From a virus, in the IMG/VR virus record IMGVR_UViG_3300027749_000107, positions 1 through 64,000 of that record: a DNA stretch of 64,000 bases; one strand, given 5' to 3'. A program made the position numbers and the translations under genes. Of this stretch, positions 1 through 35,607 are shown piece after piece. Position 1 is the stretch's first letter. The number at the start of each line of letters is the position of its first letter. The notes beneath the pieces are model-generated. The model had not been told where the DNA came from. It did no database searches and saw only the letters and a list, made by a program, of their open reading frames with translations.

Positions 1-2320
1 AAATTCGTTGACAAGAATTATCTCCAGCACTTACCATAATCTTTGAAACTGCCGGTGTTGATGCACCAAGCCCGGTGTACAACACCGATCCGGATCCAAA
101 TGTTATATACGAGTTTGTACCAACATATACTGTATTATATGTTCCGCCAAGGAAATTTACAGTAAATGGAATAGGAACCGTCCAGTATCCGTCGTCTGCA
201 GTTCCAGTAAATGCTAATGCTCCAGGCACACTAGGTGTTGATGCAGTTAACGATCCTGCACCTAAAATAGCATTTGTTATATTTGTAAATGTTCCAGCTG
301 TTGGATTAAATGTTGTTATTTGAGTACTAACATGCGGTTGAGTACTAATCACAGCTACTGCTGCATTCGTATATGCAACTGCACTATACCCAGTTTCTGA
401 AGCAGTTGTTCCGGATGAGTTTCCGGTAATAATGTATTGAACATCTGTTCCGTCTGGAACATTAGTTGTAGTAAGAGTAAACGTTACAATTCCACCGTTA
501 CTTACAGTTGCTACGTTTGACGAAAGTGCAAATGTAGCAGCTGGATTAGCAGTTTGTGTCATTTTACGTCTTGGATATACTTGACCAGTCGCAGGTCGAT
601 ACCAATTTACTACTTCCGGAAACGGAGTGCTATAATATCCGCCTACTTCTGCAGACGGCATACGGGTGCCTTGCAAAAATAACATTGGTTTAACGCTTGT
701 TGCATTAAATGTAAATCCTGCATCTTTACCGTCATTTGCGCCACCGTTTGTGCTAAAGATAGTAGCTTGTGATACATTATTAATGTAAGCTCTTGCATCA
801 GCTTGTGTCATTCTTGGATATTTTTCCGCAATACATGCTAGTACTCCGGCAGTTTGTGGACCGCTCATGCTAGTACCTGGACATTTTTTAAAATTGTTGT
901 TAACTGTGTCGGTTAGACCTAACGCAGCTACGCGCGGATCTGTAGCAATAGTAGAATCATATAACGTTGCTGTAGAGTTCCAAACACTTTGAATCCCTGA
1001 ACCCGGAGCATAACAATCAATGCGCGGTCCGTAATTGCTGTACTCGGCTTTGTAATCAACTGTTTCTATCCCAGTTGCTGTATACAGACTTTGCCCTGCA
1101 GTTTCGTTATGTTGCCCAACTGCACCAGAACAGATTGCTCGTGAATTCTCAGTAAGCCCCCAAGACGAACCAGGACTTGCTCCTCGATGAATATAATAAG
1201 TTGTTCCGCTAGATACTATTGTATTATTATAATCTATTCCAGATGGAACATCTTCATAAAAATAACTGTTACCTGCGCTTGCAACTATAATAACTCCTTC
1301 ATTCATTGCATCAATCATGTCTGCATCGGTTGCAGCATTTACCGACGGCGGTGCTACACTAACTCGTAGTCTAGCAATATTTTGAATAACATTTGCATCC
1401 CATACATATGCACCGGCTGTACCGCTTGTTGGAGTGTATGTTACTCCACGAATTGTCATCTGCGAAACATTAGCAGCTGAAAGTGCAGTTCTTGACCATC
1501 CCCAACTATTATTCATTACTGTTGGATTTTTAACGCCAGTTAGTGGATTAACTGGCTTGTATCGATGAAACATTCTTACATATTGAATTCCGTTTGTATC
1601 TGCAAACTTAATATTGTAAATATTTGCATCACGCGCCCACCCTTGTGTATTACCTGCAACAGTGCCCGACGTGTGGCCGCCATGTTCTTGTTTTCGATTA
1701 GCAATATACTGATAATTTCCAGCTGCACCTCCCGATACTTCAGGAGTGTGTTGAAACCAATTATATTCAACCATTCGTGCATAGCCAGTGCCGTCAGTGT
1801 TTTGTCGATATTCAAGTACTGACGGATATGGTGTTCCGTCGTCCATTATTACCACATCAACATTTTTACCTGACGAGTCTGAAATAATTTCTGCAGCCTG
1901 TTGAGCAGTACCGTTAATTCCCCAGTCTATTATGTCTGTTTTTCTAAGGCATCGTAATAATCCCCAATTAATATCGGTTGCATCACTAGCAACAGTCTTA
2001 TCAAACTTACTAGAATACTGACTAAACCCACATGTGCCTTTTACTAATCCTAAATCTTCAGGATTCAATTCAACAGCTAATACCCGCGGATCATTCATTA
2101 TTTCTGCAGCTTCGTCGTATGTTAACATATAATTAGTATTACGACTTATTGGTAATCTATCAATACAGTCAACTGCTCGTTTAGGAATGTACAGATTGCC
2201 GCTCGGCGTTTCCATATCTTCATAAAACCCGTCAGCATCATCAAACTTGTGCAAAGTAACAACATACATCCTAAGTGACTGATCAATTGGGTTACCTAAA
2301 TGCGGGATCGGAGCTTCCAT
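1..2320 (-). CDS. Virion-associated subtilisin-family (S8) serine protease, C-terminus cut by window edge
   Basis: Reading the minus strand from the ATG at 2320 gives an open frame of at least 773 codons that leaves the window at base 1. It carries a complete subtilase catalytic set: Asp at residue 160/161 in VVIMDDG, His213 in EHGGHTSGTVAG, oxyanion Asn351 in VASAGNS, and nucleophile Ser484 in PGTSMSGP. After about residue 560 the sequence becomes Thr/Ser/Ala-rich and beta-sandwich-like, as in phage fibre or Ig-like domains. It starts one base after the stop of the upstream fibre-like gene, with GGAG upstream, so it is the last visible gene of the leftward tail operon. No signal peptide is seen, which fits a virion part rather than a secreted host enzyme. 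Family assignment is firm. A role in host-surface digestion or tail maturation is inference from position. Confidence 0.88.
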   Translation of the reverse strand, partial: MEAPIPHLGNPIDQSLRMYVVTLHKFDDADGFYEDMETPSGNLYIPKRAVDCIDRLPISRNTNYMLTYDEAAEIMNDPRVLAVELNPEDLGLVKGTCGFSQYSSKFDKTVASDATDINWGLLRCLRKTDIIDWGINGTAQQAAEIISDSSGKNVDVVIMDDGTPYPSVLEYRQNTDGTGYARMVEYNWFQHTPEVSGGAAGNYQYIANRKQEHGGHTSGTVAGNTQGWARDANIYNIKFADTNGIQYVRMFHRYKPVNPLTGVKNPTVMNNSWGWSRTALSAANVSQMTIRGVTYTPTSGTAGAYVWDANVIQNIARLRVSVAPPSVNAATDADMIDAMNEGVIIVASAGNSYFYEDVPSGIDYNNTIVSSGTTYYIHRGASPGSSWGLTENSRAICSGAVGQHNETAGQSLYTATGIETVDYKAEYSNYGPRIDCYAPGSGIQSVWNSTATLYDSTIATDPRVAALGLTDTVNNNFKKCPGTSMSGPQTAGVLACIAEKYPRMTQADARAYINNVSQATIFSTNGGANDGKDAGFTFNATSVKPMLFLQGTRMPSAEVGGYYSTPFPEVVNWYRPATGQVYPRRKMTQTANPAATFALSSNVATVSNGGIVTFTLTTTNVPDGTDVQYIITGNSSGTTASETGYSAVAYTNAAVAVISTQPHVSTQITTFNPTAGTFTNITNAILGAGSLTASTPSVPGALAFTGTADDGYWTVPIPFTVNFLGGTYNTVYVGTNSYITFGSGSVLYTGLGASTPAVSKIMVSAGDNSCQRI

Positions 2321-2321
2321 G

Positions 2322-3779
2322 TTATGCCTCCAATTTAATTAACGTTAATGTAACGGTAATTATAGCTGCACTACTTCCGTTATTATAAATCTTAATAGGT
2401 ATGTTAGTAGTTGGTGTAGATTCGCTGCTATACCCAACTACTGCTGGTGAAAAATATTGTGTAACACTAGAGGTTGTAATTACTTCTGCAATAACACCCG
2501 ACCCAGGAACTGGATCAGTTGTTTTAATTCTAGATGCATCAGCTGATTGTGCTGAAACACTAGAATAAATAGTTACCCATGCTGCTGCAGATGTTTGTAC
2601 ACTTAATATTGCATATCCTTTAAATCCAGTAATAGTATACGTTCCGCTGTTAGCTGCTGTTAAACTTGCACTTGTTGCCGATGCAACAGTTCTTGATGTT
2701 AATCCACTACCGCCACCAGTTGACGAAATAACACCAGTTACTTGATCAATTGTGATAGTATTACCATCAACTTTTACACCGCCTAATTGTGTATTGCTTG
2801 CAATAGCTAATCCAATTGTACCAGATGAATTAGTAATACCACTTGTCGCTACTGCAGGAATAATAACTCCACCTAATGTAGTTGTATTAGCAGCTGATAA
2901 CCCTGCACTAGGAAGAGCTGATAAAGTACCGTCCATCATTAAAAATCCTGAACCAATCTTAATCCCGCCTAACTGAGAAGATGATGCAGTTGCTAATCCG
3001 ATTGTTCCGCTATTATTAGTAATGCCACTTGTTGCCACTGCAGGAACAATTACACCGCCTAATGCACTAGCAGTAGTAGCAGTTAACGTGTACGCATTTG
3101 GAATTGTTGGTTTATTTAAAACAACCCCTAATCCACTTACTGCGTCCCAATCACTTTGTACCTGTGCTGCAGGTATAGTTGGTTTATTTAAAACAACACC
3201 TAATCCACTTACTGCGTTCCAATCACTTTGTACCTGTGCTGCAGGTATAGTTGGTTTATTTAAAACAACACCTAATCCACTTACTGCGTTCCAATCACTG
3301 TGTACCTGTGCTGCAGGTATAGTTGGTTTATTTAAAACAACACCTAATCCACTTACTGCGTTCCAATCACTTTGTACTTGTGCAACATAGTTGGCATTAA
3401 TTACTCCACTACCATTAATCGTAATAGTAGAATTGTCAACTTTAACACCACCTAATTGTGTGTTGCTTGCAGTAGCTAAACCAATTATGCCGGCGGTGTT
3501 TGTTATACCGCTAACGTCTACTGCTGGAATTCTAACACCGCCTAGATTACCAGTATTTGCAGCTACTAGTGTATAAGGTACTATTTCTGCATTAATTGTA
3601 CACACTCCTGCTGTTTTAGTTAGCGTAATATGTGAACCTGGTTGAAATTTGTCAATCACTCCATTTAGACCATTATATACTTCTGAAAAATTATTATTAA
3701 TTTTTATTGCACCACTTCGTAATGTGTCACCGGATTTGTCGTTGCTAGTTGACCCAACGTTTATTGTTTGCTTAGCCAT
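2322..3779 (-). CDS. Repeat-rich fibre-like structural protein
   Basis: A 485-residue protein with no enzymatic motif. After a short N-terminal segment (GSTSNDKSGDTLRSGAIKIN) come alternating modules of two kinds: VPAVxxSGITNxxGxIGLAxAS-x-QLGGxK units, and four tandem 24-residue units around SDWNAVSGLGVVLNKPTIP (about residues 130-225). The last 130 residues form a separate beta-rich domain. Such short Gly/Asn/Pro repeats are typical of trimeric phage fibres and connectors. The start at 3779 has a good AAGGA ribosome site and lies 13 bases after the stop of the giant wedge gene; the protease gene follows directly. A short tail fibre or fibre-attachment protein is likely, but the exact T4 counterpart is not recognisable. 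Confidence 0.75.
   Translation of the reverse strand: MAKQTINVGSTSNDKSGDTLRSGAIKINNNFSEVYNGLNGVIDKFQPGSHITLTKTAGVCTINAEIVPYTLVAANTGNLGGVRIPAVDVSGITNTAGIIGLATASNTQLGGVKVDNSTITINGSGVINANYVAQVQSDWNAVSGLGVVLNKPTIPAAQVHSDWNAVSGLGVVLNKPTIPAAQVQSDWNAVSGLGVVLNKPTIPAAQVQSDWDAVSGLGVVLNKPTIPNAYTLTATTASALGGVIVPAVATSGITNNSGTIGLATASSSQLGGIKIGSGFLMMDGTLSALPSAGLSAANTTTLGGVIIPAVATSGITNSSGTIGLAIASNTQLGGVKVDGNTITIDQVTGVISSTGGGSGLTSRTVASATSASLTAANSGTYTITGFKGYAILSVQTSAAAWVTIYSSVSAQSADASRIKTTDPVPGSGVIAEVITTSSVTQYFSPAVVGYSSESTPTTNIPIKIYNNGSSAAIITVTLTLIKLEA
3100..3385 (-). repeat. Four tandem 72-bp repeats inside the fibre-like gene
   Basis: The 72-base unit encodes a 24-residue repeat (SDWNAVSGLGVVLNKPTIP plus AAQVQ) and occurs four times in a row. 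The copies are almost identical at DNA level, differing by single bases such as GAT/AAC for Asp/Asn and CAC/CAA for His/Gln. Identity at silent positions points to recent expansion or gene conversion, so copy number is likely to vary between related phages. Confidence 0.9.
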
Positions 3780-3792
3780 TTATTATCCTTAA

Positions 3793-6700
3793 TTAAAATC
3801 TTATATTATTGTTGTCAAACGTGTTATTATCGCTGTCAAATGTTTCTTGATAATATCCGTACTCTACTCCCAATGACGATTGTATAAAGTCCATTGCAGT
3901 CTGTGTAGCTACCCATGTAGAACCTGTTCGTTTAATAACAGTTATTATTGTTTTTTCTGCTAAATTAAATGTATGTGTTAATCTAACTGATTTATAAATT
4001 CCGTTAACTGAAAAATCCGCAGGTAACGTTTCTTCAATTCCTAACCGTTCATTATATACTGTATAAGGCGCTTTTTGTAAACGAATGTTACCAACAAAAA
4101 ACTCCCAGTATGCGTAATCTTCCGTAAATGTTAAGCTAGAATGCGCTTCTTTACATTTATACGTATAACTACCATACGTAACTATATCATTAACATTGTA
4201 ACCTGTTCCTGTTGTCCATGATGAACTGTCATCATACCCTCCAACAAACACTTCAATGTCATTACATTGCCCAAACCCTTTACTAACAATATCTGCAGAT
4301 TCTACTCCTTTCCATCGTGTTGTAGATTTTTTAGGTATAAACGATAGTAATACTACAATTGAGGTTCCGTATGATCTATATAATGGCGAATTGCTATTAA
4401 CTTCTACTACCGTGTTACGTTGCTTTGTACACTGTTCAGTAATAGTAGTATCAGTATAAGGAATTGTTTCACCTGCACCTAGTTCTTGAACAACTGAATG
4501 TGGCATAACATAATCTGATATGCCAGTACCTAATGTGCCGCGGCGAAGTTGACTTAATTCATTTCCGTTTTTTATAAAAAACTCAATTCGTTCGCCGTTA
4601 ATTTCAACAATGCCAGGTTTATTAGCCGTTGGATCCGGCACTGTAAACATACTCGCATCGTTTACAAAAATACTAGTATCTGTGTTTAATAACGCTTTTA
4701 CTAATGTTGTTTGTTTTACTTCTGGCATCCGCTTGTAATGCGTACGATTTAGCATGTCCTTAAACTGCATATATGTATACGCAGTAGTTGTGTCACTTGC
4801 GTTAGTATACACCTTAATAGATAACGAATCTGATACTTTGCCCGGGACTACTTCTTCAAGACCGCTAAATTTATTTTCAAAATTGTCACCGTCTATTATT
4901 ATGTCATCAATTGCTATACCGGTAGCATCTATTGGTAACTTTATTCCAGAAAGTTCACTTGAATTAAATGTACCACCGGCTAACGAAACATCATAGTCAT
5001 TATCATTTGAGGTAGCACCGTCGCTTGTTACTTCACGAATAATAAAGGTACAACTTTCTGGTACAGGTAGCCCTAAATTTATAAAATGTTGGTTGAAAAA
5101 AGTTACTGGAATGATAACATTAGTTACTGATCCGGTTGCAATCGGCGATTCCATAATATCTCCGCCATCGATTCTTATTGGGTCAGAACTTCCGAAAGTT
5201 GGCTCATAATAAACAGTTAATACAGTGCCTTCACTAGGCACACTAAATCCATCTTCTGGAAATGGAATAGTTATACTTGCTGCACCGCCGATGTATTTAA
5301 ATACAAGGTCATTAAATTTAACATTTACATTATCCCATTTAATTGTATCAAAATTTGAACGATCCCATCCGTGTTTTACACCAAAATTTAACCCAGATAT
5401 TTCAACACCACCGTAATCTATACCAACTAACAACTGTGCTAAATCTTTACCAAGTTCACCAGGTGCCGGATTATAATAATGTTCAATTCTATCTACTGCA
5501 TTTAATGCAGAGTTAGCTCTTACATACGTAACTTCTATAATACTGCCTTTGGCAATAGTACGGTTAAACTCTATCATTCCAGATAGTTTTGTATAACCAT
5601 TAACTTTTATTGATACAGTTGACACTTTGTAATGGTCTCGTATTTCTATAGCACCGTTAACAACTACCGATGTATTACCAACAATTGTACTTGGTTCCCA
5701 CTTTAATGGAAATTGGGTTCTTTTTCCAGTTACTAGTAAAACTGGAATTGTTTCAGTTTCACGCAGATCAGTCTGTGTTACACTATACGTATTTCTATCA
5801 AATTTTAAATTAATAGTATTGGTACGAATTACACTCTTACCAATAACTGCAATTGCGTTAGCAACTGATCCGGCATGTGATAAACCGCCAATAATGTGAA
5901 CAGTTGGTATTGTTAAATATGATTTACCAGGTAATACTATGTTAATACGATTAACTTTACCATTTGCAATATATGCAACTGCAGTTGCACCGTATCCGGA
6001 CTCACTTGAAATAACAACCTTTGGTGATAACGTATATCCCGACCCACCGTCTATCACACTTATATTAACTACTGAAAAACCTACGTTATCTGCCCACGAT
6101 TTCCATGGATATTGTTGGATAGCATCATTAGTGGACTGTAATCCTCCGCTAGCGGTTGTAGTTACTACTACCGGAACAACTCTTTTAAGATTTAGATCAT
6201 ATGTTGCAGGTAAATCAAAATCAGACACCTCAGATGCACTAGTCTCTATATTAGAATATAAACTAACATATTCTCTAATTTGAGTTCTATATGGTTTTAC
6301 CTCTGATACATAATCTTCATAATTAGATAAATTATCATTTTGATACGTAACTGATTGATGTAAATTTCCAACATTATGAACAACATTAACAAAACTAGTT
6401 TTAAATATCCAATCAATGTATGTTTGTTCACTCATTGCATATCGAACACTAGTAAAGAATAATTTTAAATAAGCATCGTTACTTAATATATCTTTAATTG
6501 AATTTAATATAATACGGAGTTCTGTTGCTGCACAGTTATCGTATACAATCGAGTCATATAGTACACCATCATATCCAATAGCAGTATTTATAAAATTATA
6601 CAATGTTGACGTAAACTGAATAGTACCGTCTTGACTACCAACTATTTTATAAGACGCTGTCCAATCATATTCAAAAGATTCGTTATCAGGAATAAGTTCT

Positions 6701-25051: not shown

Positions 25052-25876
25052 ATGCTTACACCAAAGGTAAATTATTTAAACAACAAGGACATGCTATTAG
25101 AAATTCATAGATCAAAAAGCTCATTTTGTGTCTTTACAGATCCGGCATTTCATCAATATGATATTATCTTACCTAACATAGACAAAGTTAATATCCGTAC
25201 AATTGCCGAAGCTAAACGGAATCAAGCAAAGCGATTAGGTGATTTAAATTATGCTAAACGAAAAAGCGAAGGCGAAAAAATTAAACAAACTGAATGCGAA
25301 ATTAATTATAAATCTATTTCAAAAAATGATGTAGTTTTTAGAATTATGTCGTATGATCATATACCACTAAATGCAACAAGAAAAAAGAATCCTAAAACAG
25401 AAGCCGATAAACGAGATAAGGTAAATTTTCCGCCGTTTCAACACTGGAAATTTGTTAATAATGAACTAGTATGTGTAGGTAAAAGCCACTGGAGTGGAGA
25501 CTTAGAAACTGGGCATTTTGATAAAACTGCAGGGCAAATTACTGATACATTAGCTCGTATGATGATTAAATTATGCGAACGATATGCAACACGCGGCAAC
25601 GTAAGAAGTTATACATACAATGACGAGATGCGTGGGCAGGCAATATTACAACTAACACAAATTGGATTACAATTTGACGAATCTAAATCAGATAATCCAT
25701 TTGCATACTTTACTGCTGCAGTTACCAATTCGTTCGTAAGAGTTATAAATATAGAGAAGCGCAATCAGAATATTAGAGACGATATTTTAGAAATGAATGG
25801 AATGAATCCGTCGTATACTAGAACAGGTTCAGAAGAATATGAGGTAGCAATGCGAAGATCAGAGGATTACGAGTGA
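25052..25876 (+). CDS. 55: Late-transcription sigma factor gp55
   Basis: A 274-residue protein whose C-terminal half carries the gp55 signature: DNPFAYFTAAVTNSFVRVIN at about residue 215-235, then EKRNQNIRDDILEMNGMNPS. gp55 is a minimal sigma factor that binds host core polymerase and recognises the TATAAATA box of late promoters; in T4 it acts with coactivator gp33 and clamp gp45. T4 gp55 is 185 residues, so this protein has an extra basic N-terminal part (KKNPKTEADKRDKVNF). It is the first gene after a sigma70 promoter. Its TGA stop overlaps the GTG start of the nuclease gene. Confidence 0.92.
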   Translation: MLTPKVNYLNNKDMLLEIHRSKSSFCVFTDPAFHQYDIILPNIDKVNIRTIAEAKRNQAKRLGDLNYAKRKSEGEKIKQTECEINYKSISKNDVVFRIMSYDHIPLNATRKKNPKTEADKRDKVNFPPFQHWKFVNNELVCVGKSHWSGDLETGHFDKTAGQITDTLARMMIKLCERYATRGNVRSYTYNDEMRGQAILQLTQIGLQFDESKSDNPFAYFTAAVTNSFVRVINIEKRNQNIRDDILEMNGMNPSYTRTGSEEYEVAMRRSEDYE

Positions 25877-27621
25877 TTGAATATCAAAAAATTTTAACTA
25901 CATTAACAGATTTAGACAGGCGACCTCGCCTGTCTTACACAGCATTATTAAAAACACCGTATGCTGAACAAATATCACAAATTTCTACATTATTGTCTAG
26001 TACAAATGCTAGACAAATAATTTATCATATTAAACAACAATCACTTGTAATTCCGTGTTGTGAATGCAGTAACCAGTTAAGTTGGCATTTAGATTTACAA
26101 CAATATCGAGCATATTGCAGTCCAAAATGCACTGCAACTTATTCTACTGTTATAAAAAAGAAAAAGAATTTAGAACTTCTTGGTGTCGAATGGCACACTC
26201 AAACCAACGATTGGAAAACTAAAGTAAAATCTACTAGTTTAGAAAAATACGGTGTTGAACATTATTCTCAAACTGACGAATACAAACAACGTGTTATTAC
26301 TTCTAATTTAGAAAAATATAATGTATCACATGTTATGCATTTATCAGAGACTAAGCAAAAAATTAAAAATACTAATTTAATTAAATACGGCTTTGATAAT
26401 CCTGCAAAAAATTATAATGTTCAATCTAAAATTAAAGAAACGAATCTTATTAGATACGGCTGCACTAATCCGTTACTAAATTTAGATATTCAACAACAAA
26501 TTAAAGATACTAACATTATTAAATACGGTTATATTAATCCTCTAAGTAATGCAAGTATACGAGAAAAAAGCGTTGCTACTAAACGAGAACACTATTTTTC
26601 TGCAGATACATTAGAAAAACTTACAAACGCATCTTGGCTAGAAAATGAACAGCATTCAGGTAAAACTGTACACGAGATTGCTAATGATATAGGTATTAGT
26701 TCTAGTCAACTATGCAAAATTTTTCATTCATTAAATATTAATATCGTCCGGCATTCTGCAAGTGAATTAGAACGAAGATTATACTTGCATTATGATCAAA
26801 AAGGTGTTAAAATAATTACGAATAATAGAACTATAATTTCACCTAAAGAATTAGATTTATATTTTCCAGACTATAATTTAGCAATAGAAATTAACGGATG
26901 TTATTTTCATTCAGAACAGTATAACAAAACACAGATGTATCATTTACAAAAAACTAATGCATGTATATCACAAAAGATTGCATTATTACAATTTTGGGAT
27001 ACAGAAATTAATGAAAAATGGGAACAAACTATTAATTTAATTGATAGTAGATTAGGGCTACATTCTAAATTATACGCAAGGCACACTAACCTGCAAGTAG
27101 TTAATTCAGCTGAGAAGGCACAGTTTATATCAACTCATCACCTGCAGGGAGACGTTAACAGTTTAATTAACCTAGGTCTGTACGATACTACTAATAGATT
27201 AATTATGGTTGCAACGTTTGGTAAGCCAAGATTTACTAAGGCTTCTACATTTGAACTATTACGGTTATGTTCGTTATCAGGGTTACAAGTAGTAGGCGGA
27301 GCAAGTAAACTTATTAACCATTTTGTTAAATGTTATATGGAACCCGATGATGTATTACTGTCGTATTGCAATCGTCGTTATAGCACTGGTAATGTTTATT
27401 ACAAATTAGGATTTACGTTAGAATCTACATCACCACCGGGATTTTTTTATATTGATAAAGCCGGAAAGTATGCAGGTTCACGGTATCAATGGCAAAAACA
27501 CTTAATGAAACACAAACTATTAACATTTGATAACACATTAACTGCATCACAAAATATGGAAAACAACGGATTTTTTAAAGTTTGGGATTGCGGACAACTA
27601 GTATTTAAATTAAAAAAATAA
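25873..27621 (+). CDS. Free-standing mobile (homing-type) nuclease with repeat DNA-binding region
   Basis: A 582-residue protein starting at GTG, which overlaps the gp55 stop (GTGA). Its parts in order are: a Cys4 zinc site at about residues 62-86 (CCEC ... CSPKC); five tandem units of about 22-26 residues of the form LxKYGxxNPxxxxxIxxKIKxTN at about 115-235; a helix-turn-helix (HEIANDIGISSSQLCKIFHS); a PD-(D/E)XK/Vsr-like nuclease core (ELDLYFPDYNLAIEINGCYF) near 335; and a GNAT-like tail (LLRLCSLSGLQVVGGASKLI). This layout matches phage mobile endonucleases that sit between conserved genes. Homing is inferred: no intron is present, and no activity can be read beyond the nuclease residues. 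Confidence 0.75.
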   Translation: MIEYQKILTTLTDLDRRPRLSYTALLKTPYAEQISQISTLLSSTNARQIIYHIKQQSLVIPCCECSNQLSWHLDLQQYRAYCSPKCTATYSTVIKKKKNLELLGVEWHTQTNDWKTKVKSTSLEKYGVEHYSQTDEYKQRVITSNLEKYNVSHVMHLSETKQKIKNTNLIKYGFDNPAKNYNVQSKIKETNLIRYGCTNPLLNLDIQQQIKDTNIIKYGYINPLSNASIREKSVATKREHYFSADTLEKLTNASWLENEQHSGKTVHEIANDIGISSSQLCKIFHSLNINIVRHSASELERRLYLHYDQKGVKIITNNRTIISPKELDLYFPDYNLAIEINGCYFHSEQYNKTQMYHLQKTNACISQKIALLQFWDTEINEKWEQTINLIDSRLGLHSKLYARHTNLQVVNSAEKAQFISTHHLQGDVNSLINLGLYDTTNRLIMVATFGKPRFTKASTFELLRLCSLSGLQVVGGASKLINHFVKCYMEPDDVLLSYCNRRYSTGNVYYKLGFTLESTSPPGFFYIDKAGKYAGSRYQWQKHLMKHKLLTFDNTLTASQNMENNGFFKVWDCGQLVFKLKK

Positions 27622-30692: not shown

Positions 30693-32756
30693 ATGCGATT
30701 AAGAGAATTATACGAATCAATCAATTTATTTGAAAATTATAACGGCAAGGTTAACAAACTTAAAACAGAATTTCCAGAAGATGCTGCAGCAATTGATCAA
30801 CAAGTGCAATGGGCTGTAACCTATTTGAAAAAAAATCAAGCTATACTTTGGTACTTAAGTATATTAGAAGCTGGTTTATATAAAAATCAAGCAGTATTAG
30901 CAACACTAATACCATCTGGCTTTCTTACTGACCCCTCTATATTTGATTCATTAGGTTCGATTCAGTACATGCTTACACATTGGGTTGCTTCTGAACTAGC
31001 ATCAAATAGACGAATAACAGATGTAATAAATACTATTCGTCTAGGCACAAGTGTAACAAATCTAGTAACAGAACTTCGCAGAGCAGAAGAACAAATAATT
31101 AAAGATAACGAAGCTGCAAGAGCAGACGCACAACCAATAGAAATATTAGAAGGGGACCATCCTGTATTGCAAGTACCAGGCACTAACAACACATGGTGGC
31201 AGTTACCTCATTATTCTCACAGCCCAGAGTCACAGTTTATGGGACATTGCGGTACTTGTCAATTCCCTGAAAATAACTTGTTAAGTTTAAGAACTGCAAT
31301 TCCGCAACCTATGCTAACATTTGAATGGAATCCAGATACTCATGAGTTATATCAAACAAAAGGACCTAAAAACAGCAAACCTAATAGCAAATTTTATCCA
31401 GATATATTAGCATTATTATTAAGTCCAGTTGTAAACGGAATTGCAGAAGATTCATGGCTTCCAGCAACTGATTTTTCTGTATTTGATTTACCAAATAATA
31501 TGCTTAATCAAATCATAGCTACTAAACCTAAACTAATTGACGATCAAATTGAAAAATATCCAATCGATTTCTTAAGAGCACCAAAGAACGTGTTAGCTAA
31601 TGAAAGATTTAGATCAGTTGCATTTGATAAATCTTCCGGTTTAAATTCACTAATAACAGAAGAAGGAGATATTGATCTGTCTAATGACGCTTGGGAAAAC
31701 GCAATTGAACAAAATAAAGATCTGATAATTTATGCACCTGACACTGTTCAAAATTACAAACAACGTGTTGGACGTTGTATTGGAGAACGTCCAAATCTAC
31801 TTAATTATGTAAGTGCAAAAGTTAGAAATGATTTTGAAATACTAAAAGAAGCAGTTTATAGCAATCGACGTTACGATATATTTGAGCATATTCCGTCTCA
31901 TTATAAACACTACAAAGAGTTAGTTAAAGCTGCATTTGAATCTGGAAATAATTGGGATCTTGATTCATTTGATCATCAATTTATTGATTTAGATATCTGT
32001 ATAAAAGTAGTAGCAAATTCATCAGATCCTAGCTATGCATTTTCAGATATCGAACATATAGGTATACTAAATCATCAAGATATGGGGAAGTTACTAGGAT
32101 TAGCAGTTGAAGCTAACCCTTATATAGTACAATACTTGAGAGGTGATTTAGTAGACGACTATTTAACTTTTGAACATTTAAAAACTGCTGCGTCAGTTGA
32201 CGGTAACATAATTGATCCGAGTGGAACTAGTTGGTCACTCGATGATGTTGTTAACCCGGACGAATTATACGAATTAGCAGTTATTGCATTAAAAACAGCT
32301 CCATTTTTAATAGACGAATTTATCAATCGATATAGTTTTACAGATGAACAAGCATTTAATTTATGTATGTCTGCAGCTGGTGCTAGAGGAAATCTTAATA
32401 CTCTTGATGTATTGATTGATCATAACTTCTTTAAAGGTGGTAATCAAACATTTAAAATTGCATCAAAAGCAATCGCCAACGGAGCTTCATTACAATATAT
32501 TACTCCCGTTGCCGACGGTGAATCTTTGCCAATAGATGCCGGTTATGTTACAGCTGATCAGTATGAACAACTTGCGCACCAATCGATAGCAATAGACGGT
32601 TATAACTTAAAATGGGTAGACGATAATTTTAAAACTTTCCAATTATGTAAAGCTGCAATTAAATCTAACCCAACATCATTTAATTTTATAAATCTAAAAT
32701 TGCTAACAAGTGAAGAAGAAGAAAAATTAAGAGAATTAGCGTTCGGAGGTCGATAA
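30693..32756 (+). CDS. Large protein of unknown function with a capsid-targeting-like leader
   Basis: A 687-residue soluble protein without membrane segments. It starts MRLRELYESINLFE, which resembles the N-terminal leaders of T4 internal head proteins (for example Alt) that carry LxE sites cut by prohead protease gp21; L-Y-E8/S9 is a candidate cut. The interior has a WWQLPHYSHSPESQFMGHCG segment near residues 168-187 with His and Cys residues. The rest looks alpha-helical and ankyrin-like (LEKYPIDFLRAPKNVLA; ALKTAPFLIDEFINRYSFTD). Similar segments occur in phage proteins with a papain-like or ADP-ribosylation-like region, but I cannot name a family. Its stop overlaps the next start as TAATG. 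Packaging in the head is a hypothesis. Confidence 0.7.
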   Translation: MRLRELYESINLFENYNGKVNKLKTEFPEDAAAIDQQVQWAVTYLKKNQAILWYLSILEAGLYKNQAVLATLIPSGFLTDPSIFDSLGSIQYMLTHWVASELASNRRITDVINTIRLGTSVTNLVTELRRAEEQIIKDNEAARADAQPIEILEGDHPVLQVPGTNNTWWQLPHYSHSPESQFMGHCGTCQFPENNLLSLRTAIPQPMLTFEWNPDTHELYQTKGPKNSKPNSKFYPDILALLLSPVVNGIAEDSWLPATDFSVFDLPNNMLNQIIATKPKLIDDQIEKYPIDFLRAPKNVLANERFRSVAFDKSSGLNSLITEEGDIDLSNDAWENAIEQNKDLIIYAPDTVQNYKQRVGRCIGERPNLLNYVSAKVRNDFEILKEAVYSNRRYDIFEHIPSHYKHYKELVKAAFESGNNWDLDSFDHQFIDLDICIKVVANSSDPSYAFSDIEHIGILNHQDMGKLLGLAVEANPYIVQYLRGDLVDDYLTFEHLKTAASVDGNIIDPSGTSWSLDDVVNPDELYELAVIALKTAPFLIDEFINRYSFTDEQAFNLCMSAAGARGNLNTLDVLIDHNFFKGGNQTFKIASKAIANGASLQYITPVADGESLPIDAGYVTADQYEQLAHQSIAIDGYNLKWVDDNFKTFQLCKAAIKSNPTSFNFINLKLLTSEEEEKLRELAFGGR

Positions 32757-33705: not shown

Positions 33706-34122
33706 ATGGACGAACTCGTAATAATATACACAGACGGTGCATGTGTTCCTAATCCAGGTAAAGGCGGATGGGGAGCTACTATGCAATACAAAGGCGTTAT
33801 AAAAGAATTTTCTGGAACAGATACACAAACTACTAACAATCGCATGGAAATGCAAGCTGCTATTGAAGCACTGTCGCGTTTAAAAAGACCATGTAATGTT
33901 AAAATTTATTCTGATTCAAGATATCTTATAGACGGCTTTACTCAATGGTTACCTAATTGGAAAAAGAAAGGACGTACAGATTACTTAAATCGTGATTTGT
34001 GGTTACAATTAGAAAACGTTGCACTTACTCATAACATTCAATGGGAATGGGTTAAGGCACATGTTGGAATTCCAGGTAACGAACGCGCTAACGACTTAGC
34101 TGAAGCTGCTGCTCGTAAGTAG
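33706..34122 (+). CDS. rnhA: Ribonuclease HI (bacterial RnhA type)
   Basis: A 138-residue type I RNase H that cleaves RNA in RNA-DNA hybrids, for example lagging-strand primers. Catalytic residues line up with E. coli RnhA: Asp10 in YTDGAC, Glu48 in NNRMEMQAA, Asp70 in IYSDSRY and Asp130 in NERANDLAE; the KAHVG handle is also present. T4's own RNase H is a different, FEN-like 5' nuclease, so this is a bacterial-type enzyme. No clear Shine-Dalgarno precedes the ATG (AACACAAAACACTATG). The leader is A-rich, which may compensate. Confidence 0.95.
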   Translation: MDELVIIYTDGACVPNPGKGGWGATMQYKGVIKEFSGTDTQTTNNRMEMQAAIEALSRLKRPCNVKIYSDSRYLIDGFTQWLPNWKKKGRTDYLNRDLWLQLENVALTHNIQWEWVKAHVGIPGNERANDLAEAAARK

Positions 34123-34152
34123 CCATTTTTGCGCTTCTTGCAAATATACATT

Positions 34153-34160
34153 TATAAATA
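34153..34160 (+). promoter_or_regulatory. Perfect late promoter driving the non-coding region
   Basis: TATAAATA, an exact match to the T4 late box, lies 30 bases after the RNase H stop and more than 600 bases before the next gene. Predicted start is near 34166. With no ORF behind it, its likely product is a structured RNA. Confidence 0.75.
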
Positions 34161-34615
34161 TCAAGCAACAAATACACTAACATAAGGTTGGCAGGCCGGT
34201 TTGTAATACTGCTGAGACAAGTTCTGGAAACGAGAACCGCTGCTCAAATCGTTGATTGTGCAACGGCTTTTAAACACTACCCTCACGCGAGAGGATGCCA
34301 AAAGCAACGTCCATTGACGTCAATGCTTTGTTTAATCGGAATGGTGGACTAGCTGTATTTGAAAAAGAATACATAGGCCTTAAATCTGTAGAATACTAGT
34401 AATAGTAACAATTTCGTAATGATATACATAGCACCTGAAAGTTATATCTTAAAAATACCTGTAAGTAGTGGTCCGGAGGTAGCCAATACGAGAGTTTACA
34501 GTCACGTAAAATCTTACTGCGATTCCATGGCGATGGGGTGAAATCATGCATCCAAGTTTATTAGGGTGCATCTGACTTCAAAAGTGATATCTATTATCTT
34601 TCATAATTAAAATAT

Positions 34616-34650
34616 AAATTATATTATTTCATATATAATTTAATTTTTTT
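34616..34650 (+). terminator. AT-only hairpin plus T7 tract, possible end of the RNA
   Basis: AAATTATAT at 34616-34624 pairs perfectly with ATATAATTT at 34633-34641, and seven T follow at 34644-34650. The stem is weak, being all A-T, so this may be an internal or partial terminator, with the GC-containing hairpin at 34699 as the main one. Confidence 0.4.
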
Positions 34651-34698
34651 CTTTCTTAAGTTTCTTTAGATAAAAGTATTGAGCGATAGCGAAAATAC

Positions 34699-34721
34699 AG
34701 ATGAACGTTAGTTCATCTTTT
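34699..34721 (+). terminator. Rho-independent terminator of the non-coding transcript
   Basis: AGATGAAC at 34699-34706 pairs with GTTCATCT at 34711-34718 around a GTTA loop, followed by T residues to 34721. It lies between the non-coding region and the next late promoter, so it separates the two transcripts. Confidence 0.65.
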
Positions 34722-34740
34722 AATATGAGAATTAATTTTT

Positions 34741-34748
34741 TATAAATA
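34741..34748 (+). promoter_or_regulatory. Perfect late promoter with 5' leader hairpin
   Basis: TATAAATA exactly matches the T4 late box. Predicted start is near 34754, 44 bases before the ATG at 34798. The leader contains a small hairpin, GATATT 34765-34770 with AATATC 34779-34784, just ahead of the AAAGGA ribosome site. Confidence 0.8.
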
Positions 34749-34797
34749 TTCATATTATATAAGGGATATTACGAAAGCAATATCATAAAGGATCATT

Positions 34798-35607
34798 ATG
34801 AAAATACAAGAAATTATAGAAACTTCTGATGAAAGGTTTCTACGTGAAGCAGATGGTTTTATTAAACAAGGACTTAAAGCCTTAGGTAACAAGGTATTTC
34901 CTAGTGCAGGAAATAGAATGGCCGGCGCATCAGAAAAGATGAGTATGTTACGTGCTGACTTTAGTGTACTAGCAACAGCTGGTAAATTTGCAGCATTAGT
35001 AGCACCATTTTGGACATATTATAAAAATATGTCAAATGTAGAAGACAATTATAAAAGCGGTGCATACACTGTAGAGCAATATAAAGAGAATCATCAAATA
35101 CAATTAGGATTATTAATTGAAGAAGAGGCTGCTATATTAGGAACGCTTGGAGCCATGGCTTCGATAAATGTTTTATCAATGTTGTTTAATGTATTACCTA
35201 TTTTTGGTCCTATTTTAGGAGCAATATTTAGAGGGTTAGCACCCGCAGCAGGTGCTTATATGTTAGTTTGGCTTAACACAGATGAAGGGCGTAAAGCTCT
35301 AGCATCATTAGTGTCTGCAGAATTTATTAAAAACACTGGAGCAGTAGCTGAAACAGCAATAAATGCAATACGTGATAAAGCACACGAAGCATTAGGCATG
35401 AAACCAGAAACTGATCCAGCATACACAAATACACCATCTCCAAACGGTACTACGCCAAATGCAGATCCTGCTAAACCCGATGATAAAAAAGATGATAAAA
35501 AAGATGCAGCTCCTAAATCAAAATATAATCCAAAAACTGACTTTACACCAGAAAGATTTAAAAGAGATGCTAATGGCGAGTTAACATTAGCATACGATAA
35601 AGGCTAA
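34798..35607 (+). CDS. Late hydrophobic protein with capsid-leader-like N-terminus (possible internal/ejected membrane protein)
   Basis: A 269-residue protein of no known family. The N-terminus MKIQEIIETSDERF has I-x-E sites like those cleaved by prohead protease in T4 internal proteins. Residues about 60-80 (AGKFAALVAPFWTYY) and 110-160 (ILGTLGAMASINVLSMLFNV; PIFGPILGAIFRGLAPAAGA) are hydrophobic and Gly/Ala-rich, enough for two or three membrane spans. The C-terminal 70 residues are charged, Pro/Asp/Lys-rich and likely disordered (KPDDKKDDKKDAAPKSKYNP). It has its own perfect late promoter and ribosome site. A pore or pilot protein released with the DNA, or a holin, are both possible; the leader favours the first. 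It meets the convergent small ORF end to end. Confidence 0.7.
   Translation: MKIQEIIETSDERFLREADGFIKQGLKALGNKVFPSAGNRMAGASEKMSMLRADFSVLATAGKFAALVAPFWTYYKNMSNVEDNYKSGAYTVEQYKENHQIQLGLLIEEEAAILGTLGAMASINVLSMLFNVLPIFGPILGAIFRGLAPAAGAYMLVWLNTDEGRKALASLVSAEFIKNTGAVAETAINAIRDKAHEALGMKPETDPAYTNTPSPNGTTPNADPAKPDDKKDDKKDAAPKSKYNPKTDFTPERFKRDANGELTLAYDKG

Follow-up and report, generated by a model that had tools for sequence, protein, structure and literature searches.

The window, a 64-kb part of a 68,483-base IMG/VR virus record, holds a gap of 675 nt (exactly 34123-34797) between the end of rnhA (33706-34122, an RNase H by profile match to PF00075) and the start of a 269-aa gene. Upstream, in a T4-like region, lie gp46/47-type recombination genes, and downstream a gp26-type baseplate protein (PF12322) and portal/capsid genes. 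By capsid protein, the closest named phages are the jumbo phages Phosso, Vibrio 2.275.O, PA5oct and CBB, and the window phage is itself a T4-like jumbo phage. The initial annotation had stated that no ORF fits the gap, and indeed none longer than 54 aa is present on either strand. The contrast it drew between a GC-richer half and AT-rich flanks was also found, with a GC content of 0.35-0.44 across the RNA core vs 0.19-0.28 in the 3' flank.

An exact late promoter had been reported at the 5' end of the gap and a second one beyond a hairpin terminator at 34699-34721. We found all three, with exact TATAAATA elements at 34153 and 34741 and a T-tailed hairpin at 34699-34718 (see table); only six exact copies of TATAAATA occur in the 64 kb, both strands included. 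Judged by its sequence, the gap is an RNA gene, a separate transcription unit with its own predicted promoter and terminator. By analogy with T4 late promoters, transcription is expected to start at about 34166, and the promoter and neighboring genes suggest late expression. The unit resembles T4 late transcription units in its TATAAATA promoter, which is conserved in relatives, and in its intrinsic terminator, but differs from them in encoding an RNA and no protein.

Table. Features of the RNA gene and its surroundings (window coordinates)
Feature	Coordinates	Strand	Evidence
Late promoter of the RNA, T4-type, TATAAATA	34153-34160	+	Exact match
Putative transcript, ~557 nt	34166-34722	+	Promoter-to-terminator span
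Conserved structured RNA core	34174-34595	+	Profile HMM matches all window-type loci
5' domain, homologous to the RF01718 region (model R1)	34174-34350	+	
Hairpin H2, GCAG 34191-34194 / CTGC 34209-34212	34191-34212	+	100% paired; 2/4 pairs double-changed
Hairpin H3, GTTCT/AGAAC	34221-34237	+	Alignments
Hairpin H4, TCGTTG/CAACGG	34249-34266	+	Compensatory CGCTA/TAGCG in L023; T-A/C-G/T-G alternation
Helix H5, AAAC 34272-34275 / GTTT 34330-34333	34272-34333	+	100% paired
Hairpin H6, CACTACCC...GGATG motif	34276-34295	+	Polynucleobacter-1 counterpart CACUAuCC...GGAcG
Hairpin H7, AAAGCA-ACGTC / GACGT-TGCTTT	34301-34329	+	96-98% paired; 7/11 pairs double-changed
3'-domain hairpin TACTA/TAGTA	34394-34407	+	TACCA/TGGTA in L028, L030
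Hairpin ATGCATCC / GGGTGCAT, then CTGACT	34546-34571	+	Sequence, alignment
Tandem-GA hairpin UAUU-GA-GC-GAUA-GC-GA-AAAUA	34676-34698	+	In all subfamilies
Intrinsic terminator, hairpin 34699-34718 with T-tail	34699-34722	+	Counterpart hairpin covaries in 105 relatives
Late promoter of the 269-aa gene (34798-35607)	34741-34748	+	Exact TATAAATA

Scanning the gap with Rfam returned no family at the gathering score; at E ≤ 5 the only matches were two snoRNAs at the start of the next gene, which we regard as chance. The group I intron, RNase P and tmRNA models did not match the RNA, and no tRNA or tmRNA was detected in the 64 kb by ARAGORN or covariance models, in line with the absence of these signatures noted earlier. 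GOLLD and ROOL are likewise large, highly structured phage RNAs; both assemble with themselves into cages, and GOLLD expression goes up during lysis (PMC12286853). As the initial annotation had anticipated, neither Rfam covariance model matches the window RNA, which also differs in locus and architecture. GOLLD is often found near tRNA genes, whereas the window RNA has no tRNA island nearby.

A protein search with rnhA retrieved 19 partly redundant IMG/VR contigs, including two of 372 kb, and the RNA lies behind rnhA in all of them. One (L013) is nearly identical to the window, and a DNA pattern search added a partial copy (L043). Over ~420 nt, nine distinct sequences could be aligned, and long stretches of this alignment are invariant; the window RNA shares 77-97% nucleotide identity with its relatives over about 600 nt. 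Between the window and contig L023, the rnhA protein is 84% identical and the product of the next gene only 27%. The promoter element (at most one mismatch in 9/9 distinct sequences, 23-46 nt 5' of the conserved RNA start), the hairpins and the terminator recur across the nine sequences beyond chance. The helices carry compensatory changes and no reading frame is conserved, and these homologues, together with the promoter and terminator, uphold the earlier description of a large structured phage RNA. Against named phages, blastn of the gap gave chance matches only, and the downstream 269-aa gene found nothing when used as search bait.

Three contigs found through gp26 (L005, L006 and L008) carry a ~500-nt gap at the same genome position, whose first 141-151 nt match Polynucleobacter-1 (RF01718; Rfam model of 141 nt, gathering threshold of 37 bits) at 73-84 bits; the best score in phage contigs was 120 bits. 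This motif was merely tabulated by Weinberg et al. 2010 ('y y ?', Burkholderiales, fresh water/estuary; PMC2864571). An extended RNA is present at the same locus in most of 89 loci, and RF01718 covers just the 5' third of this pseudoknotted phage RNA of ~450 nt. A motif from the part beyond RF01718 occurs in at least 120 IMG/VR stretches. Polynucleobacter-1-type RNAs are found at 105 or more distinct viral loci vs one of 84,980 bacterial/archaeal genomes, and in this sole GTDB genome with the extended-RNA motif the copy sits on a 4.5-kb MAG contig. RF01718 is absent from nine named relatives, and blastn of one Polynucleobacter-1-type copy against named phages gave no match. An exact late promoter was not found just upstream of Polynucleobacter-1-type loci, and these RNAs may be processed from an upstream mRNA. 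Other copies of the RNA have sigma70-like promoters, read by eye, in unrelated contexts.

The window's own record gives no RF01718 match at E ≤ 10, and none reaches the 37-bit threshold, so its homology to RF01718 is transitive. The two share their locus, the phage gp46/47-SegE to gp26 region. By manual mapping, the 5' helices of the window RNA follow the Polynucleobacter-1 order, with the CACUAyCC...GGAxG hairpin inside the closing helix. The 3' hairpin-terminator module (34668-34726) matches the Polynucleobacter-1-type profile at E 3e-6; in Polynucleobacter-1, the tandem-GA hairpin and terminator lie downstream of the region modeled in Rfam. The window RNA differs in sequence, loop sizes and 3' domain, and is located behind rnhA with its own late promoter, whereas Polynucleobacter-1 copies lie behind SegE. 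Its 3' domain was mapped onto the other subfamilies by eye, a weaker mapping than that of the 5' domain, and the homology appears strongest in the 5' domain and at the 3' end.

Both 372-kb phages carry three copies of the RNA: one linked to rnhA, one of Polynucleobacter-1 type (L060 and L062) and one intermediate (L061 and L212). The window-type HMM (E 9e-7), RF01718 (28.7 bits, E 4e-5) and R2, a model built from 71 Polynucleobacter-1-type sequences (E 7e-4), all detect L061. A weak R2 match (E 0.03 within 2 kb) also covers window positions 34205-34338, with H5/H6 in register. Model R1, trained with L061, finds the untrained L212 at 99 bits, as well as L238, L239 and L233 (60-68 bits, E 1e-13 to 1e-15, the E-values of R1 and R2 being rough), in matches that extend past the 20-nt pattern used to fetch these three. 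R1 finds no Polynucleobacter-1-type locus, and the link between the window RNA and Polynucleobacter-1 therefore rests on the intermediates. Weak R1 matches in Melnitz were rejected as lying in repetitive coding-like sequence, and weak R2 matches in phage CBB (E 0.05-0.5) were treated as chance. Given the bridging paralogues, sequence comparison places the window RNA, as a new and divergent subfamily, in a superfamily of phage RNAs that comprises four or more architectures. The initial annotation, which had suggested a possible new member or class, had foreseen neither the kinship with RF01718 nor the superfamily. Around the Polynucleobacter-1-type copies of these phages, tandem small genes encode paralogous proteins (..YDEAxMYCLxLExxGKxGWRxPT..; L060 3031-9000, L062 1292-6911). 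The intermediate copy of L061 adjoins nicotinamide phosphoribosyltransferase-like and NadR-type nucleotidyltransferase-like genes (1568-3830), possibly for NAD salvage.

Another architecture, class C, comprises ~50 distinct sequences retrieved with the 5' hairpin pattern, and no Rfam family recognizes it. Where flanks are readable, it often has small genes, SegE-like or other, on its 5' side and gp26 or a head-type gene on its 3' side. In most cases the gene upstream, though it varies, has its stop codon (..NT*) inside the conserved, invariant AACACTTAAGG of the RNA; this was noted at class C loci such as L264 6306-6760 and L285 11684-11945.

Comparative data support the base pairing. When the window-type sequences are aligned with L061 and L212, 93.5% of pair cells are standard and 16/34 pairs are changed on both sides, which 0/500 shuffles reach. 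Because the structure guided this alignment, slid controls (31-55% paired) make a fairer yardstick, although they too are tilted toward the fitted structure. H2 reads ACGG/CCGT in L061 and L212, the H3 loop CTGATGTGTG is common to L023, L061 and L008, and H5, which closes the H6-H7 junction, has one pair changed from A-U to C-G in L212. The hairpin at 34546-34571 is placed like H13 of the other subfamilies and is presumably its equivalent. One earlier proposal failed: a longer closing helix (34188-34193 with 34296-34301) is complementary in the window, but it is broken in L016, L023, L061 and L212 and is thus unsupported; the conserved 5' hairpin instead pairs 34191-34194 with 34209-34212. Single-sequence folding energy is not unusual (z = -1.0, 16/100 shuffles fold equally well) and is uninformative, so that the case for a structured RNA rests on the comparative data.

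Against a purpose-made, tree-based null modeled on R-scape, 29 column pairs of an alignment of 105 distinct Polynucleobacter-1-type sequences covary at E ≤ 0.05; most are Watson-Crick and a few are identity pairs. Three pseudoknots were found, joining the 5' end to the H4 loop, the H9 loop to a downstream strand, and H11 crossing H12. In the 5'-domain alignment of 71 sequences, 25/30 pairs are double-changed (0/500 shuffles), and at pairs of the Polynucleobacter-1-type alignment G-U cells outnumber A-C cells (157 vs 93), consistent with an RNA of this strand. Two AAAG strands (columns 239-242 and 341-344) covary in such a way that they stay identical, and each is the complement of CTTT 324-327, which may point to a strand-exchange switch or a domain swap.

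Two segments flanking a hairpin in the Polynucleobacter-1-type RNAs share their variable positions, which are identical in 103/104, 104/104 and 102/104 sequences; in class C the heptamers are identical in 24/27. Each of these RNAs has two private heptamers that evolve in step, yet they are not complementary to each other, which raises a puzzle. Paralogues within one phage differ (AACAAAT in L060 vs ACATAAA in L061; in the other phage, GACAAAT in L062 vs ACATGAA in L212), so each RNA has its own partner, and it is unlikely that a single protein or target reads the heptamers throughout the phage. Simple gene conversion is also unlikely, because the adjoining segments differ in a fixed way (CTC/TCT, G/A). 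A complementary third strand was sought in cis and not found; the best candidate, the H5 3' strand, is largely explained by G-U tolerance. In the window subfamily the heptamer pair is not clearly present. Heptamers that are private and change in concert hint at self-specific assembly. More speculatively, and with rather low confidence, the superfamily (four or more architectures, in most cases at a single locus, with up to three diverged paralogues per jumbo phage) would recognize itself through its private heptamers in a homotypic assembly code.

Taken together, we consider it likely that the window holds a late-promoter RNA gene whose product, a divergent member of the RF01718 superfamily, acts in trans, perhaps as a scaffold, the mechanism that we favor. 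A folded, pseudoknotted RNA of ~557 nt would be made late in infection, would act in trans, and would join with copies of itself, a phage protein or both to form a particle, like GOLLD and ROOL, with the conserved 3' hairpin module serving as an assembly or recognition end. That the scaffold is self-assembling or protein-bound is proposed by analogy with the GOLLD and ROOL cages, and we hold this part only tentatively.

Action in trans is more probable than control in cis, because the genes downstream of the RNA differ between loci, are convergent or are served by a promoter of their own. A leader or 3'-UTR element controlling a neighboring gene would agree with the 'y' in the second column of the Weinberg et al. 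2010 table (PMC2864571) and with the many loci that have a same-strand gene just downstream. However, the window has a terminator and a further promoter between the RNA and that gene, across 89 loci the downstream gene varies, is replaced or is convergent, and paralogues adjoin unrelated genes, all of which makes cis control quite improbable. Inverted repeats of a DNA element, such as an origin or packaging site, could mimic RNA helices next to rnhA and the recombination genes; compensatory changes, the excess of G-U over A-C on this strand (157 > 93) and the sense-strand promoter and terminator render this very improbable.

A trans-acting RNA could have other roles than that of a scaffold. 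A regulatory or decoy RNA binding host RNA polymerase, ribosomes or a defense protein (6S-like or anti-defense) is conceivable though doubtful: phages carry the RNA in several copies, under sigma70-like as well as late promoters, but 6S and other known families do not match and no candidate partner emerged. Conserved unpaired stretches and pseudoknots would suit a ribozyme or intron-like element, which is nevertheless improbable, as group I/II intron, RNase P, HDV and other ribozyme models find no match and no gene is interrupted. As to kinship, the lack of a direct RF01718 match and the failure of R1 to find Polynucleobacter-1-type loci would be expected if the window RNA merely occupied the same locus as an unrelated RNA; the bridges L061, L212, L233, L238 and L239 and the common 3' module leave little chance for this.

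The contigs indicate that many giant phages carry the RNA, and at one position of the genome. What was merely a table entry in 2010, a short 'Burkholderiales' motif, becomes a widespread family of large RNAs in phages, and Polynucleobacter-1 now has a defined locus and full length, with its pseudoknots, subfamilies, promoters and paralogues described. Its function thereby becomes testable, and GOLLD and ROOL are joined by a further group of large phage RNAs.

Several neighboring proteins also drew attention. Adjoining the gp47/46 genes, a 582-aa homing-endonuclease-like protein (25873-27621) contains repeated LEKYG.. units. The gene 3' of the RNA (MKIQEIIE..) begins like the capsid-targeting peptide of T4 internal head proteins and its product has hydrophobic segments; its positional counterparts (MK[VI]xxIIxE..; L005 7038-8294) share this type of start, as does a 687-aa DUF4116 protein (30693-32756, MRLRELYE..). 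From these starts, the 269-aa protein, its counterparts and the DUF4116 protein may be head-packaged, fast-evolving proteins.
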